From Synechococcus sp. Cruz-7E5 (GTDB lineage: Bacteria; Cyanobacteriota; Cyanobacteriia; PCC-6307; Cyanobiaceae): 64,000 nt of DNA. Made by a program: the position numbers and the translations under genes. The stretch covers positions 186,001 through 250,000 of the forward strand of contig NZ_JAGQCE010000002.1 in assembly GCF_024345995.1 (NCBI RefSeq), written 5' to 3'. Positions 21,522-29,693 of this stretch are shown here, in pieces. How positions within the stretch are numbered: position 1 is the first letter of the stretch; each line of letters opens with the position of its first letter. The notes beneath the pieces are model-generated. The model was given only the letters and a program-made list of their open reading frames with translations, did not search any database and was not told where the DNA came from.

Positions 21522-23933
21522 GTGACCCTCTCAGCCAAGCCGCTTCCAAAGGTCGAACAAGTTGATTTTGTAAATCTCGTGGCAACGCATGCCAGTGGCA
21601 CCGGCTCGGGCCGGCTGCAGGGCGGCCAGATCGGCGCCAACGGCCTGCTGGAGCCTGATTTCCCGCCCACGGCCCCGGCGGCTAACCCCGTTTTTTACCG
21701 CACCTATTCCCGCCGCACCCCAGGCGGCCGCGAGAGCTGGCTCCAGGTGGCCGAGCGCAACCTGGAGGGTCTGCGCCAGCTGGGCCAGCTCAATGCCGAG
21801 GAAGTGGAGCTGATCCGGCGCATGCAGAAGCACCAGCAGGCGCTGCCGTCGGGGCGCTGGCTGTGGATTGGTGGCACCCCCTGGATCGAGCAGCGCCATA
21901 ACTTCTCCGGCGCCTACAACTGCACCTCCACCAACCTGATCGACTGGGAAGCCTTCGGTCTGATGATGGACCTGGCGATGATGGGCTGCGGAACCGGCGC
22001 CATCATCGAGCCGCACCTGATCGAGCGGCTGCCGCTGGTGCGCAACCGGCTGGTGATCGAGAGCGTCAGCCCGATCGGCCTCACCCCCGCCGGAGCGCGC
22101 CAGGAGGCCACCAGCCACAGCATCGATGGCAACCGGGTGTCGATCAAGGTGGGCGACACCCGCCGCGGCTGGGTCGACAGCTACCAGCTGCTGCTGGAGC
22201 TCAGCAGTGATGAGCGCTTCGACGCCGAGACGCCGATCACGGTGAGCGTGGACCTTTCCGATGTGCGGCCGGTGGGCGAAACGCTCAAGGGCTTCGGCGG
22301 CATGGCCAACCCCGTGAAGCTGGGCGACCTGTACGGCCGCGTGGCCCAGATCCTCAACAAGGCGATCGGCCGCCGGCTCAGCTCGGTGGAGTGCTGCCTG
22401 CTGATCGATGAGGCGGCGGTCACGATCGTGGCCGGCAATATCCGCCGCAGCGCCGGCATGCGCCAGTTCTCCGCGGAGGATTCCTCTGCTGCCGGCGCCA
22501 AGGAGAACCTCTGGCAACAGGACGCCGAGGGCAACTGGAGCATTGACCCCGAGCGCGATGCGCTGCGGATGGCCAACCACACCCGGGTGTTCCACAGCCG
22601 CCCTTCAAAAGAAGTGGTGCTGGAGGCGGTGGTCAAGCAGTTCCAGAGCGGCGAAGGGGCAATCCAGTTCGCGCCCGAAGCGATTGCCCGCTCCAATGCC
22701 GACCTGCTGACCACCCCGGAGCTGCGCAGCGAGTTCATCGACATCTATGTGGACCAGGGCCGCGAGGAAGCCGGCCGCTGGTTGCAGCTGAATCATCCAG
22801 AGATCAGTGCCGCCGAGCTGGAGCACCGTCTAGGGCGCTATGGGCTGAATCCATGCGGTGAAATATTGGGTGCTGATTTCCACTGCAACCTGGCGGAAGT
22901 TCATCTGAACCGGATCGATCCGGCTGACCACCAGGCCCAGGCCGATGCGTTCAAGGCTGGCGGCCTGGCGGTGGCCTGCCTGCTCAACCACGACTTCGAA
23001 GTGGAGCGCTACCGCCAGAGCCGCGCCTGGGATCCGATTGTGGGGGTGAGCTTCACCGGCCTGTTCGACTTCTTCGTGCATGCCTTCGGCACCCCTTGGT
23101 TGAACTGGTGGGAGCAGGGCCGCCCTGAAACGGAGCAGGGGCTGAAGTTCAAGGCCCAGGAAGCGGAGTATCTGGGCCGCTGGAAGCAGATCGTGAATGA
23201 AGCGGTGTGGGACTACTGCGACCGCCACGGTCTGCGTCGCCCCAACCGCTGCACCACCGTGCAACCGGCCGGCACCAAGAGCCTGCTCACGGGCGCCAGC
23301 CCCGGCTGGCATCCGCCCAAGGCGCAGCGCTTCATCCGCCGCATCACCTTCCGCAAGAACGATCCGGTGGCGCTGGCCTGTATGGACTACGGCTACACGA
23401 TCGTTCCCAGCCAATCCGACAAGGACGAGCAGGGGCGATTGCTGGATGATCCCTTTGATCCCCGCTGCGGCGAATGGCTGGTGGAGATTCCCACTGAGGT
23501 GAGCTGGGCGAACATCCCGGGCGCCGATGCGGTGGAGATCAACAACTTCTCGGCCCTGGCCCAGTTCGACTTCTACATGCAGGTGCAGAAGCACTACACG
23601 GCCCATAACACCTCCGCCACGGTGGAGTTCCGCGAGAACGAGATCGAGCCACTGGCCGAGGCGATCCACCAGGCGATCGATGGAGGGGAGGGTTACATCT
23701 CGGCGGCGCTGCTGGCCCGCTTCGATGCCAATGCCACCTTCCCGCGGCTGCCGTTCGAGCCGATCGACCAGGCCACTTACACGCGCCTGCAGCAGGAAGT
23801 GGCCGCCCGCTGCCGCACCGCAGATTTCTTTGAAGCGCTGCAGCGTTACGACCAGGGCGAACTGGTGGAAGCTGGACCCGCCGGCTGTGATTCCGACAAG
23901 TGCCTGATGCCCCTGGCCAAACCCGCCTCATGA
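21522..23933 (+). CDS. nrdJ: Class II (adenosylcobalamin-dependent) ribonucleoside-triphosphate reductase
   Basis: A monomeric RTPR-type reductase makes dNTPs using a cobalamin-generated thiyl radical, needing no oxygen-dependent subunit. The 803 residues include GRWLWIGGTPWIEQRHNFSGAYNCTSTN, here cited only by its ends GRWLWIGG and NCTS, the substrate-site NPCGEILGADFHCNL, and the C-terminal cysteine pair in GCDSDKCLMP used for re-reduction. No intein interrupts it. The start is GTG at 21522. Picocyanobacteria typically rely on this B12-dependent enzyme. It is translationally coupled (ATGA) to a small secreted protein. Confidence 0.96.
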   Translation: MTLSAKPLPKVEQVDFVNLVATHASGTGSGRLQGGQIGANGLLEPDFPPTAPAANPVFYRTYSRRTPGGRESWLQVAERNLEGLRQLGQLNAEEVELIRRMQKHQQALPSGRWLWIGGTPWIEQRHNFSGAYNCTSTNLIDWEAFGLMMDLAMMGCGTGAIIEPHLIERLPLVRNRLVIESVSPIGLTPAGARQEATSHSIDGNRVSIKVGDTRRGWVDSYQLLLELSSDERFDAETPITVSVDLSDVRPVGETLKGFGGMANPVKLGDLYGRVAQILNKAIGRRLSSVECCLLIDEAAVTIVAGNIRRSAGMRQFSAEDSSAAGAKENLWQQDAEGNWSIDPERDALRMANHTRVFHSRPSKEVVLEAVVKQFQSGEGAIQFAPEAIARSNADLLTTPELRSEFIDIYVDQGREEAGRWLQLNHPEISAAELEHRLGRYGLNPCGEILGADFHCNLAEVHLNRIDPADHQAQADAFKAGGLAVACLLNHDFEVERYRQSRAWDPIVGVSFTGLFDFFVHAFGTPWLNWWEQGRPETEQGLKFKAQEAEYLGRWKQIVNEAVWDYCDRHGLRRPNRCTTVQPAGTKSLLTGASPGWHPPKAQRFIRRITFRKNDPVALACMDYGYTIVPSQSDKDEQGRLLDDPFDPRCGEWLVEIPTEVSWANIPGADAVEINNFSALAQFDFYMQVQKHYTAHNTSATVEFRENEIEPLAEAIHQAIDGGEGYISAALLARFDANATFPRLPFEPIDQATYTRLQQEVAARCRTADFFEALQRYDQGELVEAGPAGCDSDKCLMPLAKPAS

Positions 23934-24199
23934 GCTGCCGCAGCTGGCCTGCGGGCGTGGTGATCAGTCTGCTGTGCCTGAGCCTGCCTGCCCGGGCCAG
24001 CAGTGATCTCAACCCTGACATCGAGAAGATGTGCCAGGGGCTGGCGGTGATCAACACCGAGCTGGGGGCTACTGCAGCCCCGGGCACACCGATGGGCAAG
24101 CGCATGCAGAACGAGTTGTCGCTCAGCCAGGCTCAATACGGCGCGCTGTGGTCGCTGATGAAGCTCACGCCCACCAGCACCTGCTCCTCTTTGTATTGA
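23930..24199 (+). CDS. Small secreted protein of unknown function, coupled to nrdJ
   Basis: The 89-residue protein starts at the ATG overlapping the nrdJ stop. It has a signal peptide (MSCRSWPAGVVISLLCLSLP, cleavage near ARA-SS) and a mature part of about 65 residues with cysteines at CQGL and TSTCSS, and a helical middle (NELSLSQAQYGALWSLMKL). The coupling to nrdJ may only reflect a compact transcript. I do not recognise the family. It is the last host-like gene before base composition changes. Confidence 0.65.
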   Translation: MSCRSWPAGVVISLLCLSLPARASSDLNPDIEKMCQGLAVINTELGATAAPGTPMGKRMQNELSLSQAQYGALWSLMKLTPTSTCSSLY

Positions 24200-24410
24200 G
24201 TGAATATCTGCTGGGAGGTGGGTTTGCAGACCACGGCTACGGTTGAATAGTCGGTAACTAAAACCTTCGCCCCAGAGGGATTCTTATCTCATCATCCAAA
24301 CCGCCATCGACTGGTTCACGGGAAGGAAAGCCCGTCAGGGATGGTTCACGGAAACCATCCAATATCAAGGTAGGCCTATATTGAGCAATGCTCATCGCAA
24401 CAGAGTGAAG
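24200..24410. repeat. Spacer at the island's left edge with hairpins and a short direct repeat
   Basis: Gene-free 210 bp. It contains a perfect 8-bp stem, GGATGGTT/AACCATCC (24339-24346 and 24353-24360, 6-nt loop), a 5-bp stem ACGGG/CCCGT (24318-24335) and TGGTTCACGG repeated directly at 24312-24321 and 24342-24351. GGTAGGC at 24369-24375 differs by one base from the attC R-box GTTAGGC, but no matching partner box is clear, so I do not call an attC site here. A promoter for the next gene is expected but not obvious. Confidence 0.5.
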
Positions 24411-25241
24411 ATGTCAGCGAATCCCCTCCAGGATGCAAAAGACGGGCTTGTACTGGCTGGGGAGCTGATCAGGCTTGCCGGCGAGGACCCAAAGGCACGT
24501 GAAGCGGCTGCGCATCTAGGCGAAGCGGCAGTAACAATTTCACAAACGATCAACAATGCACTTCTGCCACTCGCGGCTGTAAACTTCGCAATCGAAAAGG
24601 CACGAATATACTTTTCAGAAAGATTTGGAGATGAGCTTTCTGCAAAGGCAGCAAATATACCTGTTGATCAGCTTGTCGAGCCCAAGGCGTCAATTGCTGG
24701 ACCAGCGCTTCAAGGCCTCGCATTTTGCTTTGAAGAAGCAGATCTTAAGGAGATGTATCTGAATCTCCTTGCTACTTCCATGGACAAGCAAGTTGCTTCA
24801 AACGCACACCCAGCTTTTGTAGAAGTCATAAGGCAGTTAAGTGCTGAAGATGCAGCGCTTCTTAAGTCGGTGCTTGCTGGAAAAGCTGGCTCAATCGGTA
24901 TTGTTCGGGCAATTCTTAAAACCGAAGGTAAAGATGGATTTAGTGTACTTCAGAATCATATTCTTAGAACAGCTGATTCTGATGATGATGCTCTAGTGGC
25001 AATTCCTGGCTTAGCGGCAATCGTCGAGAACTGGCAGCGGCTGGGGTTGATCGTGGTTGACTATGCAATAATGCTCGTCGGTGACACGTTGTATGACTGG
25101 GCTGATGACCACCCAGACGTCATACGGTTGAGGGAGGGCAACACACAGAGTGGAAAGGTTGTTGAGTTGGGATTAGGCGTGATGTATCGCACTGATTGGG
25201 GAGAACGATTCGCTAAGGCAGTTGGCCTTTCTGATTCATAA
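24411..25241 (+). CDS. Abi-alpha (DUF4393) family protein, putative abortive-infection gene
   Basis: The 276-residue protein matches the DUF4393/Abi_alpha family. Its central signature runs from VEPKASIAGPALQGLAF through LKEMYLNLLATSMDK to HPAFVEVIRQLSAEDAALL, preceded by an amphipathic helical part (QTINNALLPLAAVNFAIEKA) and followed by a divergent C-terminus. Family members occur in phage-defence loci and prophages; the mechanism is not established. The start at 24411 (MSANPLQDAKDGLVLAGEL) is preferred to a TTG at 24381. GC is visibly lower than in host genes, showing transfer. A 9-bp inverted repeat (25221-25229 and 25247-25255) spans its stop codon. Confidence 0.85.
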   Translation: MSANPLQDAKDGLVLAGELIRLAGEDPKAREAAAHLGEAAVTISQTINNALLPLAAVNFAIEKARIYFSERFGDELSAKAANIPVDQLVEPKASIAGPALQGLAFCFEEADLKEMYLNLLATSMDKQVASNAHPAFVEVIRQLSAEDAALLKSVLAGKAGSIGIVRAILKTEGKDGFSVLQNHILRTADSDDDALVAIPGLAAIVENWQRLGLIVVDYAIMLVGDTLYDWADDHPDVIRLREGNTQSGKVVELGLGVMYRTDWGERFAKAVGLSDS

Positions 25242-25248
25242 GAAGCAA

Positions 25249-25348
25249 GGCCAACCAGTCCACTCCAGCAGGCGGGAAATGCCACTTTCCGGAACCTAGG
25301 AGGAGATCCTCCAAAACACTTTCGCCCGCTGCTGAGAGAGCGTTAGGC
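25249..25348 (+). other. attC-like recombination site after the Abi-alpha gene
   Basis: The 100-bp segment ends in GTTAGGC (25342-25348), a perfect R-box of the integron attC consensus GTTRRRY. It begins with GGCCAAC (25249-25255), a fair match to the partner box. Inside, CTCCAGCAG (25263-25271) pairs with CTGCTGAGAG (25329-25338) with one extrahelical base, and the stem continues through GCGGGAAA against TTTCGCCCG. One bulged base in the L-box and unpaired spacers are hallmarks of folded attC sites. The next gene starts 35 bp later. I did this by eye, without a covariance model. Confidence 0.5.
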
Positions 25349-25383
25349 TTCACAAAAAAACCGCCCGTCAGAGAGGCACGCCA

Positions 25384-27141
25384 ATGGCAATCTTGCTTGA
25401 TTCGGTCGAGATCTCGAACTTCAGATCGGTCTCTAGTTGCGCCCTTCCGCTAAGCACTTACACGCCGATCATCGGCTATAACAACTCGGGCAAGAGCAAC
25501 TCAATCACCGCTATTCAGTGGCTGCTTCGGCGATCGTTGCTTGCGAAAGCAGATTTTCATAGTGCCGCACTGCCCATCGAGGTCGTTGGAACAATCACTG
25601 GCGTTACGGCGGCGCATGTGGCGGAAATGCCTCCCCCTCAGCAGCGGCAGATCACACCTTACATAGCAGGAGAGACGCTGAAGGTGAAGCGCACACAGCC
25701 ACCTACTGCTAGCAAAGCCGGCGAGATCACCCTATCGGTATGGGATCCGACAACATTGTCTTGGAACGCCAATCCAACAGGAATCGACAACGCGCTGGGC
25801 GCCCTACTTCCAGAGCCAATCCGTATTGGCGCGATGGAGAACGCTGCAGAAGACGCGGCAAAGTCGAAGACAACGACCACTATCGGCAAGTTGCTCGCTG
25901 AGTTCATTGCACCGGTCAGAGCGGCCCACGCCGTAGAGCTGTCCGGCTTCCTTCAGGAGATCTCCCGTCGTGTCAGCGCAGATGGCGACATGCGCTTTGC
26001 CGAGCTAGTCACGATCGAGAATCAGATCACAGTCAAGGTCAACGACCTCTTTCCTGGTATTGGCGCGAAGCTGCACTTTCCGGTCCCCGAGCTTGAAGAC
26101 CTCGTCAAGGGCGGCACACTGCGACTTCAAGAGGGCACAAACTCTCCCCGTGACTTTGGCTCGTATGGTCACGGAACCCAGCGTTCAGTGCAGATGGCAT
26201 TGGTCCGGCACTTGGCAGAGGTCCGCCGTGGCGCTGGACCTGGGCTTGGCACGACGCTTCTACTTATCGATGAACCAGAGCTCTACCTCCACCCGTTCGC
26301 TGTAGAGCAAATTCGTGCCGCACTCAAGTCTCTTGGAAGGACAGGATACCAAGTTATCTTTTCGACGCACTCGGCTCAGCTCGTGCCTGCGTCCGATGCG
26401 CAGTTCGCCCTGCTCATGAGGAAAGATGCTGCGCGGGGTACGTATGCCAGGAGTAGGTTGCGTGACGCCATCCAGAGAGCAGTGCCGAACTCGGTTCATC
26501 AGATGGAGCAACTCTTCACTCTTGGGAACTCAAGCCAAGTTCTCTTTGCCGACCGAGTGTTGCTAACTGAAGGAAAGACCGAATTGCGCCTGCTTCCTGC
26601 CATCTATGAGGCCATAGCCGGCCGCAGCCTCGGCCAAGAGCGCTGCGCGCTTGTTGCTCAGAGCGGCGTCAACGACACTAGGAAGTCGACTGAAATCCTC
26701 GCCGCAATGGACGTACCTTGCAAAGCAATTGTCGACTTGGACTACGCGTTCAGTGGAGCAGTCCGCGATGGATACCTGGTAGCTACCGATCCCGACATAT
26801 CTGCATTGAAGCTGGAGTTGGCGTCACTAGCCGCCGCCGGTAGGGTCTCGGTTGGCCCTAACGGCCTGCCTCAGGGCGGAGTCGTTACCTCGGCGCAGGC
26901 ATTCGTTCTTTTAGCACAACATATCGGCGCTCAGCCGCACATAGTTTCTCTTCACTCGAAACTTCTCGCGCAGAACATCTGGCTTTGGCAGCTCGGCGAC
27001 ATTGAGGCGCACTTGGGCCTTGCCGAAAAGTCAGAGCGTGAGTGGGCGCGTTTCAACGTCGATCTAAATACAAGAGGACTGCATGCGGCATGTCCACACC
27101 CTGCATCTATCCAACAAATGCTCGCGTGGGCAATTATGTGA
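25384..27141 (+). CDS. OLD-family ATPase-TOPRIM nuclease (defence-type)
   Basis: The 585-residue protein has an SMC/ABC-like ATPase half with Walker A GYNNSGKS (31-38), a GSYGHGTQRSVQMAL signature-like loop and Walker B LLLIDEPELYLHP (Asp296, Glu297), then FSTHSAQL. The C-terminal half is a TOPRIM domain with Glu396 in LLTEGKTE and DxD at 451-453 (VDLDYAF). This is the plan of OLD nucleases, which cut DNA in phage defence; class 2 members are Gabija GajA, paired with a UvrD-like helicase. No helicase or reverse transcriptase is adjacent, so it is a standalone type or works with its Abi-alpha neighbour. All catalytic motifs look intact. Confidence 0.88.
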   Translation: MAILLDSVEISNFRSVSSCALPLSTYTPIIGYNNSGKSNSITAIQWLLRRSLLAKADFHSAALPIEVVGTITGVTAAHVAEMPPPQQRQITPYIAGETLKVKRTQPPTASKAGEITLSVWDPTTLSWNANPTGIDNALGALLPEPIRIGAMENAAEDAAKSKTTTTIGKLLAEFIAPVRAAHAVELSGFLQEISRRVSADGDMRFAELVTIENQITVKVNDLFPGIGAKLHFPVPELEDLVKGGTLRLQEGTNSPRDFGSYGHGTQRSVQMALVRHLAEVRRGAGPGLGTTLLLIDEPELYLHPFAVEQIRAALKSLGRTGYQVIFSTHSAQLVPASDAQFALLMRKDAARGTYARSRLRDAIQRAVPNSVHQMEQLFTLGNSSQVLFADRVLLTEGKTELRLLPAIYEAIAGRSLGQERCALVAQSGVNDTRKSTEILAAMDVPCKAIVDLDYAFSGAVRDGYLVATDPDISALKLELASLAAAGRVSVGPNGLPQGGVVTSAQAFVLLAQHIGAQPHIVSLHSKLLAQNIWLWQLGDIEAHLGLAEKSEREWARFNVDLNTRGLHAACPHPASIQQMLAWAIM

Positions 27142-27142
27142 A

Positions 27143-27268
27143 TTCTAACCCTTCGTAGGAGTCGACTCGCATCAGCATGGCAATTGGCCCACCTCTCGGA
27201 GTGGTCCTTCATCCGTCCAGCGGGCCGAGCGCCACACCGGCGCTCGCGCCTCAGCTCAATCGTTCGGC
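27143..27268 (+). other. Second attC-like site, after the OLD-family gene
   Basis: Starting one base after the stop codon, TTCTAAC (27143-27149) resembles an R-box and the segment ends in GTTCGGC (27262-27268), which departs from GTTRRRY at one position. Between them GAGTCGACTCGC pairs imperfectly with GCGCCTCAGCTC, and a perfect 7-bp stem GAGCGCC/GGCGCTC lies further in. A length of 126 bp suits large attC sites. A ribosome-binding site and the next start codon follow within 10 bp, as in gene cassettes. The match is weaker than at 25249-25348. Confidence 0.4.
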
Positions 27269-27277
27269 AGGAGGACG

Positions 27278-27661
27278 ATGAAAACTCATGCTGGTTTCCG
27301 CTCGGCAAAGTTTGCGCCCTACGAAGGCGAGGAAGAGAAGATCAATCCGGGTCTCTGGGACCAACGACTTGCCGAATATCTCCTGGCAAAGCTCAAGGAC
27401 CATGGAATCGAAACTCATGAGATGATCCCATAAGACTGGGGACTGTACATCCCCATCAAGAACGACGGATTCCGTCTTGCTCTTTGCTGTGGCCACCAGA
27501 GCGGAGACGCTGACGAGTTCCTGTGTTTTACTAATCCTTGCAAATCGACAATCAGGAAATGGTTCAAAAAGATTGACACGACATCCCAGGTCCGGCGCGT
27601 GGCGGAAGCACTTGAGAAGATTCTTGGGTCCGACCCGGATATCCGAGACGTCAATTGGTGA
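27278..27661 (+). pseudogene. Small conserved gene broken by a single in-frame TAA
   Basis: From ATG 27278, with CAGGAGG just upstream, the frame reads MKTHAGFRSAKFAPYEGEEE and continues for 51 codons to MIP, then TAA at 27431-27433. The same frame then reads DWGLYIPIKNDGFRLALCCG and GDADEFLCFTNPCKSTIRKW and ends at a TGA (27659-27661). Read through the stop it is one coherent 127-codon protein, in a family I know only as uncharacterised. A Glu codon (GAA) changed to TAA would explain the break. No frameshift is needed. The first half could still be made as a 51-residue peptide. Confidence 0.75.
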
Positions 27662-27902
27662 ACAGAACAATCAAACTGATTCTCGATGAACCGCCTGGAA
27701 TGCTATGGCTCGTTCCATGCCAGTGTCTAGGCGGGGATAAACACATTTCAATTCCCCGAAACCCAGACTGCTGATCTACTCCGAGAAGCTCAAGCCTGCG
27801 TGCATCTCCTTGCCGCAACCTCTGGGCGGAGTTCATCGTCGATCAGCCTTGCCCAGCTCGTAAGCCTGCTGGCATCCTGAGAGAACAGAACTCCTCTCCC
27901 CG
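27662..27902. other. 241-bp spacer before hsdM
   Basis: No gene found. It holds an imperfect hairpin with outer stem CCGCCT/AGGCGG (27691-27696 and 27729-27734) and inner GGAA/TTCC. I looked for a third attC-like site after the broken gene and did not find matching R-boxes. A promoter for the restriction-modification operon is expected here but no convincing hexamers stand out. Confidence 0.5.
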
Positions 27903-29693
27903 TTGACCTACGCCGCTGAGAACCCACTGAGCGACGCCGGACGCAACGACGACCTCGCCGACGAGTTCCTCGGCGCCCTCGAAGCCCTGGGCGGATCCGC
28001 TGGCAACGGCCGCCTCCGCGAAACCCTGGAGTGGGACGAAGCCAGCTACGAAGCGGTGAAGGCTGATCTGTTGAGCCGACGGCTGATCGTGCCTGGCCGG
28101 GGTCGCGGTGGCTCGGTGGCCCTGGCGGATGGGTCGGCAGTGGAAGCCTCAGGCAACGGCCAAGCCGCCAGCCGCGCCCCCCGCACCCGCGCTCCCAACG
28201 GTTCCCGCGCCGCCTCGGCCCCCAGCTCCTTCGAGCAGGCGTTCCGCGCCATCGACGACTGCCTGCGCAAGGAGGCCGGCTGCGGCACCGAGCTCGACTA
28301 CACCGAGCAGACCTCCTGGCTGCTGTTCCTCAAGTACCTCGACGGGCTCGAAGACGACAAGGCCGCCGTGGCTGCCCTGGAGGGCCGCAGCTACGCTCCC
28401 ATCCTGGAAGAGCCCTACCGCTGGAACAGCTGGGCGGCACCGAAGACCGCCAGCGGCCAGCTGGATCACCACGCCGCCCTCACCGGCGACGACCTGCGCG
28501 ACTTCGTGAACCAGCGCCTGTTCCCTTACCTGGAGCGCTTCAAGCAGCGCGCCAGCGGGCCGAACACGATTGAGTACAAGATCGGCGAGATCTTCGGTGA
28601 ACTGCGCAACAAGATCAGCAGCGGCTACAACCTGCGCGAAATCATCGATGTGATCGATGGTCTGCGCTTCCGCTCCCAGGCCGAGAAGCACGAGCTCTCG
28701 ATGCTCTATGAGGAAAAGATCAAGCGCATGGGCAACGCCGGCCGCAACGGCGGTGAGTACTACACGCCCCGGCCGCTGATTCGCGCCATCGTGCAGGTGG
28801 TGAACCCGCAGATCGGCGAGTCGGTCTACGACCCGGCGGTGGGTTCCGCCGGCTTCCTGTGCGAAGCGTTTGAGTTCATGCGCAAGGGCGGTGCCGAGGG
28901 GCGCGAACTGAGCACGGAGGATCTGGAGACGCTGCAGTCGCGCACCTTCACCGGCAAGGAGAAGAAGAGCCTCGCCTATGTGATCGCGATCATGAACATG
29001 ATCCTCCATGGCATCGAGGCGCCCAAGGTGCTGCACACCAACACCCTCACCGAAAACCTCAGCGATGTGCAGGAGCGCGACCGCTTCGATGTGATCCTCG
29101 CCAATCCGCCGTTTGGCGGCAGTGAACGCAAGGAGGTGCAGCAGAACTTCGAGATCCGCACCGGCGAAACCGCTTTTTTATTTTTGCAGCACTTCATCCG
29201 CCTGTTGCGCGCGGGCGGCCGCGCCGGCGTGGTGATCAAAAACACGTTTCTCTCCAACACCGACAACGCCTCGGTGGCCCTGCGCCAGAAGCTGCTGTCC
29301 GATTGCAACCTGCACACGGTGCTCGACTGCCCCGGCGGCACCTTCCAGGGCGCGGGTGTGAAAACGGTGGTGCTGTTCTTCGAGAAGGGTGCGCCCAGCC
29401 ACAAGGTGTGGTTCTACCAGCTCGATCCCGGCCGCAACCTTGGCAAAACGAACCCCCTTAACGACCGCGACCTGGCGGAGTTCGTGGAGCTGCAGAAGTC
29501 GTTTGCCGACTCGCCCAAGAGTTGGAGCGTGGCGATGGACTCCATTGATCCAGAGAGCTGGGATCTTTCGGTGAAGAACCCCCATGGGGGAGAGGCGGTG
29601 GCGCTGCGGAGCCCGCAGGAGATCATGGCAGAGATCGTGTCGCTGGATGCGGAAAGTGCGGAGGTGCTGGGGAGGATCAGGGCGTGGGTATGA
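27903..29693 (+). CDS. hsdM: Type I restriction-modification system DNA methyltransferase subunit HsdM
   Basis: N6-adenine methyltransferase that pairs with HsdS to protect host DNA. The 596 residues have a winged-helix-like N-terminal extension (about 15-75), an Ala/Pro-rich linker, the HsdM N-domain (SFEQAFRAIDDCLRKEAGC, TSWLLFLKYLDGLE) and the methyltransferase domain with GEYYTPRPLIRAIVQVV, the SAM-site DPAVGSAGFL and catalytic NPPF (401-404). The likely start is TTG at 27903. It overlaps hsdS by ATGA. GC is higher than in the cassette-like part to its left, so the locus was probably acquired separately. Confidence 0.95.
   Translation: MTYAAENPLSDAGRNDDLADEFLGALEALGGSAGNGRLRETLEWDEASYEAVKADLLSRRLIVPGRGRGGSVALADGSAVEASGNGQAASRAPRTRAPNGSRAASAPSSFEQAFRAIDDCLRKEAGCGTELDYTEQTSWLLFLKYLDGLEDDKAAVAALEGRSYAPILEEPYRWNSWAAPKTASGQLDHHAALTGDDLRDFVNQRLFPYLERFKQRASGPNTIEYKIGEIFGELRNKISSGYNLREIIDVIDGLRFRSQAEKHELSMLYEEKIKRMGNAGRNGGEYYTPRPLIRAIVQVVNPQIGESVYDPAVGSAGFLCEAFEFMRKGGAEGRELSTEDLETLQSRTFTGKEKKSLAYVIAIMNMILHGIEAPKVLHTNTLTENLSDVQERDRFDVILANPPFGGSERKEVQQNFEIRTGETAFLFLQHFIRLLRAGGRAGVVIKNTFLSNTDNASVALRQKLLSDCNLHTVLDCPGGTFQGAGVKTVVLFFEKGAPSHKVWFYQLDPGRNLGKTNPLNDRDLAEFVELQKSFADSPKSWSVAMDSIDPESWDLSVKNPHGGEAVALRSPQEIMAEIVSLDAESAEVLGRIRAWV

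Follow-up and report, generated by a model that had tools for sequence, protein, structure and literature searches.

How did three single-gene units of low GC content come to stand in a row behind a conserved ribonucleotide reductase gene of Synechococcus sp. Cruz-7E5? The locus was analysed in a window of 64,000 nucleotides (G000:C12:186001-250000, that is, contig C12 of genome G000; genome size 3.16 Mb, 31 contigs). The original prediction, made from the letters of this window, had described a defence-gene cassette array in a picocyanobacterium, and its interpretation proved essentially right. The genome is of picocyanobacterial size, and a defence role is likely from the encoded families. 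The locus is read here, with a probability of roughly 0.93, as a chromosomal integron cassette array in which the integrase gene intI is missing, the attachment site attI has been kept and the cassettes lie head to tail behind attI. The prediction of a cassette-like array without an integrase held for the array and missed the attI upstream of it (24343-24369). Judged from its sequence, the array is an attI-headed decayed integron and not a stray cluster of attC sites.

The three units follow one another on the + strand between the reductase gene, with the 99-residue open reading frame that overlaps it, and an HsdM gene, and thus run in one direction as had been proposed. The palindromes ending in GTTAGGC (25342-25348) and GTTCGGC (27262-27268) were both present, with the next ATG 35 and 9 bases behind them, as close by as had been described. 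GC content was 49.5, 56.9 and 51.3% in units 1, 2 and 3 against 66.7% in the surroundings, and third-position GC was 41 and 61% in genes 1 and 2 against 84-86% in neighbouring genes. Because these values lie below those of the neighbours, the genes of the units are probably foreign in origin.

attI at the head of the array and the missing integrase

A leader at 24200-24369 (+ strand), containing the direct repeats TGGTTCACGG, was homologous by alignment to the intergenic region between intI and attI, the intI gene itself being absent. The alignment (∼170 bp) was obtained with the regions behind intI in G006:C13, G007:C17 and G000:C29 and behind intI relics in G001 and G002. The aligned regions have in common an inverted repeat, the direct repeats and a core GGTTCACGGAAACCATCCAATAACAAG, and their similarity is lost at CAAG|TT, the expected crossover. 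The window's attI core, GGTTCACGGAAACCATCCAATATCAAG, occupies 24343-24369 (+ strand), with crossover expected after G24369. Bar one ambiguous position it is identical to the cores beside intI or its relics on G006:C13, G002:C84 and G001:C19, and window positions 24312-24375 match the stretches just 3' of the relics on G001:C19 and G002:C84 and of the intact intI on G006:C13. In this clade intI has the same orientation as the cassettes and attI lies behind its 3' end. Of the marks of a complete integron, attI was thus found at the head of the array and an adjacent intI was absent.

A 26-nt variant of attI was found beside other intact or truncated intI genes (G007:C17, G000:C29). At the orthologous locus the 27-nt kind is present in G000 and G006 and the 26-nt kind in G002, G003, G004, G005 and G007 (window 24343-24369; L082, L085-L089). 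This distribution does not track flank similarity, and strains may have exchanged the leader. With 3 mismatches, the 27-nt pattern also matched a sequence that is identical among G004, G005 and G007; this was set aside as probably unrelated.

No intI was detected by tblastn at the reductase-attI locus in this genome or in any sister genome where the locus was readable. The predicted absence of an integrase therefore holds only locally, since several truncated intI genes and ∼22 attC sites occur elsewhere. The suggested search of the rest of the genome returned these ∼22 sites on 11 contigs together with the intI relics. None of those in the window's genome is full length: the best intI (C29) is missing roughly 55 residues at its N-terminus, and the rest are shorter still. 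Because every intI found here is truncated, the present array is probably frozen by now, and the other arrays of this strain may be so too. In G001-G008, intact IntI proteins of ∼330 residues are encoded elsewhere in the genome.

G000 contains no fewer than seven further intI genes or relics (C29, C13, C2:7.7 kb, C2:73.6 kb, C2:56.7 kb, C30:94.4 kb and C28; L015, L016, L017, L018, L097, L124 and L020). They span stages of decay from a truncated open reading frame of ∼310 residues down to the last 40 codons, and most of them have attI and attC behind them. Two attI copies that had seemed to lack intI (C2:56.7 kb and C30) carried intI 3' relics and were not counted as integrase-free.

attC sites and cassette boundaries

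A covariance model of attC, R1, was built in this analysis and is distinct from the attC model of IntegronFinder. It was trained on 20 attC sites from sister-genome loci and one other locus of the window's genome, none of them from the window. The training sites were aligned as the folded (minus) strand and pairs were counted according to the attC structure. Of the cells, 88.6% pair, and the covariation score exceeded all 500 shuffles and lay well above all slid versions. R1 gave 22 matches at E < 0.01 on 11 contigs of the window's genome and 6 to 27 matches in each of the nine genus genomes. It gave zero matches in twelve genomes of the same family that are without a real intI (G009-G012, G016-G018, G021, G025, G029, G032 and G034). 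Matches also occurred in a few distant genomes that have no strong intI, such as G053 (3 matches).

Within the window, attC1 (25249-25348, folded strand -) scored 32.7 bits (E = 6e-6 in the window, 3e-4 genome-wide), the next-best score on either strand of the 64 kb, with all filters off, being 11.7 bits. The site consists of R'' GGCCAAC, the L arms CAGCAgGCGGG and CCCGCTGCTG, and R' GTTAGGC. Its L-box helix, CAGCAgGCGGG/CCCGC-TGCTG, contains one extrahelical G, and its left arm, CCAGCAGGCGGG, was found letter for letter in an attC of the sister species G005 (L088:3587-3673). The R boxes, L-box pairing and single extrahelical base that had been picked out by eye at 25249-25348 are thus supported by both score and helix. 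Since the R1 match comes with clean controls, 25249-25348 is a genuine attC site. Cassette 1 extends from the attI crossover to the G of GTTAGGC (24370-25342, + strand) and comprises an Abi_alpha gene with attC1.

The second site, attC2 (27143-27268, - strand), has R'' TTCTAAC at 27143-27149. The right box found in place, GTTCGGC at 27262-27268, belongs to cassette 3, so that a weak palindrome is expected when TTCTAAC is read against GTTCGGC, and a weak one was found. The start of cassette 2 itself, GTTAGGCTTCACA (25342), and its end, TGTGAATTCTAAC (finishing at 27149), are complementary at 11/13 positions; of the 1122 GTT sites that the two strands of the window contain, this is the best non-self partner. 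Folded in the circular form, attC2 gave one long hairpin with paired R boxes at -60.0 kcal/mol, against -53.3 kcal/mol in place. Cassette 2 (25343-27262, + strand) consists of a gene for an OLD-type nuclease with attC2, and is supported by its PADLOC match and its complementary ends. Of the attC sites expected in a cassette array, one per gene and in the same orientation, with R boxes, paired L boxes and an extrahelical base, attC1 was thus recovered by R1 and attC2 is supported by the complementary cassette ends. The proposed covariance search confirmed site 1 and failed for site 2, with R1 in place of IntegronFinder's model; the second site had been called the weaker.

Cassette 3 (27263-27712, + strand) comprises a gene and closes with a short putative attC. 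The gene is a frame of 127 codons (27278-27661, + strand) with one internal in-frame TAA and has no family match. Its boundaries are given by G002:C5, where, at the same locus, a CPBP-protease cassette and a cupin cassette are followed by a copy of cassette 3 that is 85% identical over 27259-27715 only. Both edges of the homology fall on predicted G|TT points, in the GTT boxes of 27262 and 27712. The copy in G002 is also interrupted, at a different position. On G006:C12 an identity of 90% extends from the reductase gene as far as 24373, which lies four bases beyond the attI crossover, and other cassettes follow. Precise gain or loss of single cassettes between G and TT is seen in cassette 3 alone in G002 and in the divergence of G006 at 24373. 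In the strain comparison that had been recommended, cassette 3 accordingly occurred where units 1 and 2 were missing, its edges lay at G|TT, and movement of the three genes as a block was not seen.

The units are shown to be integron cassettes by the lone unit in G002, the divergence of G006 at the attI edge, the attC-flanked relatives of the OLD gene, and a second Abi_alpha gene with an intI relic on one side and an attC on the other. Mechanistically, an integron integrase would recombine the folded minus strand of the attC of a circular cassette with attI, cutting between G and TT, and cassettes of one gene and one attC each would be inserted head to tail behind attI 24343-24369.

Several observations weigh against this reading. 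R1 did not recover attC2, even with filters off, and attC2 gains only moderately in folding energy when the start of its own cassette is restored, 19 of 615 controls doing equally well (23 of 615 in the equivalent control for cassette 1). The attI junction of the window reads GGTAGGC and not GTTRRRY, so that one junction position has decayed. The comparison that bears on delivery in trans covers six arrays, and in two genomes of the genus the contig breaks off close to the locus.

Rfam gave no relevant match at the gathering or a relaxed threshold. A strict GCCTAAC...GTTRRRY pattern was no more frequent genome-wide than in a reversed control, so simple sequence patterns are too blunt. A second attC model, from sites outside the genus, was aligned and not built, as the L boxes aligned poorly. 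A 55-bp attC-like palindrome (GTCCAACCACCGGATAAGATCGTGG...CCTTGTTCGTTAGRC) is repeated near contig ends in G001 (L083:75-129, L094:4636-4690 and L133:7869-7923), with a variant in G000:C30 (L124:5085-5138); either a short attC or one end of a mobile repeat could account for it. On plasmid pB of Kovacikia minuta (L150, NZ_CP083584.1) an integron integrase 60% identical to sister IntI was found with three R1 attC matches.

One attI position in seven species

The upstream flank consists of an adenosylcobalamin-dependent ribonucleoside-triphosphate reductase gene (21522-23933, + strand; TIGR02505, 914 bits) and the overlapping 99-residue frame (+ strand), which ends at 24199, giving a conserved flank of 21522-24199. 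This DNA is 85-95% identical in G001-G008 up to 24199-24204 and anchors the locus within the genus. Downstream, conservation resumes at 27761 in G001, and the HsdM gene of a type I restriction-modification system (27903-29693, + strand; N6_Mtase, 203 bits) is a flank and no cassette.

Behind the same reductase gene an attI without intI was found in seven species, with different cassettes in each. The alignment is continuous from the gene before attI to an attI without intI in G002, G004, G005 and G007, with a shortened version in G003; the gene before attI is TMEM175-like (PF06736 in G005). Because this upstream-to-attI alignment is orthologous, the intI-less state would predate the species G002, G003, G004, G005 and G007, and intI would already have been absent from the locus before the species split. 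Apart from cassette 3, the cassettes behind attI in different species have only attC letters in common. An IS21-type transposase with its helper (rve/Mu-type domain and IstB) lies inside the G003 array (L086:3913-6125, G003:C1).

The simplest reading of these sequence comparisons, and the most likely history, is that the cassettes were loaded in trans, IntI from other loci of the same genomes delivering them to attI; full-length IntI is encoded elsewhere in G001-G008, and all IntI found in the window's own genome are truncated. The wider proposal, that the attI behind the reductase gene is an integrase-less docking site kept through speciation and that one integrase serves several platforms, stands at even odds. 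A rather less probable history, though a serious one, is that a large ancestral array lost intI by later deletion and each species kept a different remnant, with no insertion in trans. Loss of intI with the cassettes left behind is the usual path of integron decay, integrase activity has been progressively lost in Xanthomonas (PMC12444791), intI relics of every length occur in this genome, and cassette 3 is broken in each of its two copies, as happens in old arrays. Against this, five orthologous loci have the same intI-less junction and no cassettes in common with each other; a large common array should leave some common cassettes, and only cassette 3, in the window and G002, is of this kind.

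Two further origins were judged very improbable. The units could belong to an ordinary defence island of foreign genes, imported through homologous recombination or with some other element, in which case the palindromes would only resemble attC; defence genes cluster, HsdM adjoins and the low GC content points to foreign origin. Such an island would not account for the covariance match with empty controls, the attI at the head, the exact cassette edges or the OLD genes in attC-flanked cassettes elsewhere. No better founded for this locus is off-target insertion, in which an integrase from elsewhere uses a random attG-like site and leaves a stray attC cluster without attI. It is one proposed origin of CALINs, clusters of attC sites without an integron-integrase (PMC8618304), and the ∼22 attC matches on 11 contigs would suit it; it may explain other attC sites of this genome. 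Cassette 1, however, starts at a proper attI, the ∼170-bp alignment with intI-attI regions includes the direct repeats, and the attI position is conserved in seven species.

Cassette genes and known systems

The Abi_alpha gene of cassette 1 is intact (24411-25241, + strand; PF14337, 134.7 bits; PADLOC candidate PDC-S47, 134 bits). The window protein matches the same domain as the known family, over residues 68-271, and among 291 genomes of the class searched it was found in this genome only. It differs from the family in that two divergent copies occur in one genome, both as integron cassettes. The second copy, on C28, has a broken frame and is 35% identical to that of the window. It lies in a decayed integron (L020:9220-11650, G000:C28, ∼159219-161650) composed of an intI relic, a third attI variant, the second Abi_alpha gene, an attC, a small toxin-antitoxin-like pair and an attC.

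The OLD-type ATPase/TOPRIM protein of cassette 2 is intact (25384-27141, + strand; 585 residues; PADLOC Old, 730.7 bits over 5-582). An N-terminal ABC-type ATPase (AAA_15, 79.7 bits) is followed by an OLD-like TOPRIM domain (52.6 bits), as in other single-gene members of the OLD family (PADLOC Old; OLD-like TOPRIM PF20469); this member differs in being an integron cassette in a cyanobacterium. Among 60 relatives searched, no other cyanobacterium had a homologue. Gammaproteobacterial relatives are flanked by attC ends, plainly so in the metagenome-assembled genome (MAG) 28-57-27 and in Shewanella, Neiella, Cocleimonas, Salinivibrio and Ferrimonas; the nearest found, in MAG 28-57-27, is 66% identical and itself lies in a cassette. 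A homologue on a Candidatus Eisenbacteria MAG contig (L162) has near-identical attC-like sequences on both sides, which suggests an integron in that genome. In plasmids, a DNA search with the array gave nothing, and protein searches gave distant relatives only.

Both Abi_alpha and OLD count among the defence families, annotated or candidate (PADLOC, Pfam), and cassettes 1 and 2 likely serve phage defence. The cassettes may be expressed; a promoter scan gave matches no more numerous than in shuffles and identified no promoter. Sister cassettes at the G006:C12 locus include a MazEF pair, a predicted nuclease and others. Across the sister species, cassettes at the same attI encode MazEF, an Xre/RES toxin-antitoxin pair, a RelA/SpoT-domain protein matching a PADLOC candidate, predicted nucleases and metabolic genes.

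Integrons in Cyanobacteria and CALINs are already established (PMC8618304, PMC2426708), and a search of the open-access literature, subscription papers being outside it, found no report of integrons in picocyanobacteria. The array is a further case of known integron, CALIN and defence-cassette phenomena; the genus-wide integrase-less attI is the part that specialists would follow. Like CALINs (PMC8618304, PMC12444791), it has cassettes with attC sites and no adjacent intI; unlike them, it has kept attI at its head and occupies one chromosomal position in seven species. IntegronFinder needs two attC sites for a CALIN and might miss this array, in which only one site fits a model well, the count here being one by R1 and a second by other evidence. 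In Xanthomonas, CALINs lie at fixed loci and are stated to be mobilisable in trans by functional IntI (PMC12444791). The two settings are alike in a platform at a conserved gene, integrase decay in many strains and recurrent CALIN loci away from intI. They differ in that the integrase-free locus described here carries an attI core of its own and belongs to a picocyanobacterial clade, in which intI runs parallel to the cassettes and several intI loci or relics occur per genome.

Reports from 2025 by Darracq, Kieffer and Getz, as summarised in PMC12409362, describe integron cassettes that carry defence genes. Sedentary and mobile integrons likewise hold cassettes with antiphage genes, in a large Vibrio array or a mobile integron; the present array is small and cyanobacterial, with defence a candidate function only. 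Picocyanobacteria are important phage hosts and this clade is integron-rich. Many cassettes at the locus encode defence or toxin-antitoxin functions; this would carry the view of integrons as defence stores beyond Proteobacteria, and seven species with one attI without its integrase offer a natural test of trans loading of a distant attI.

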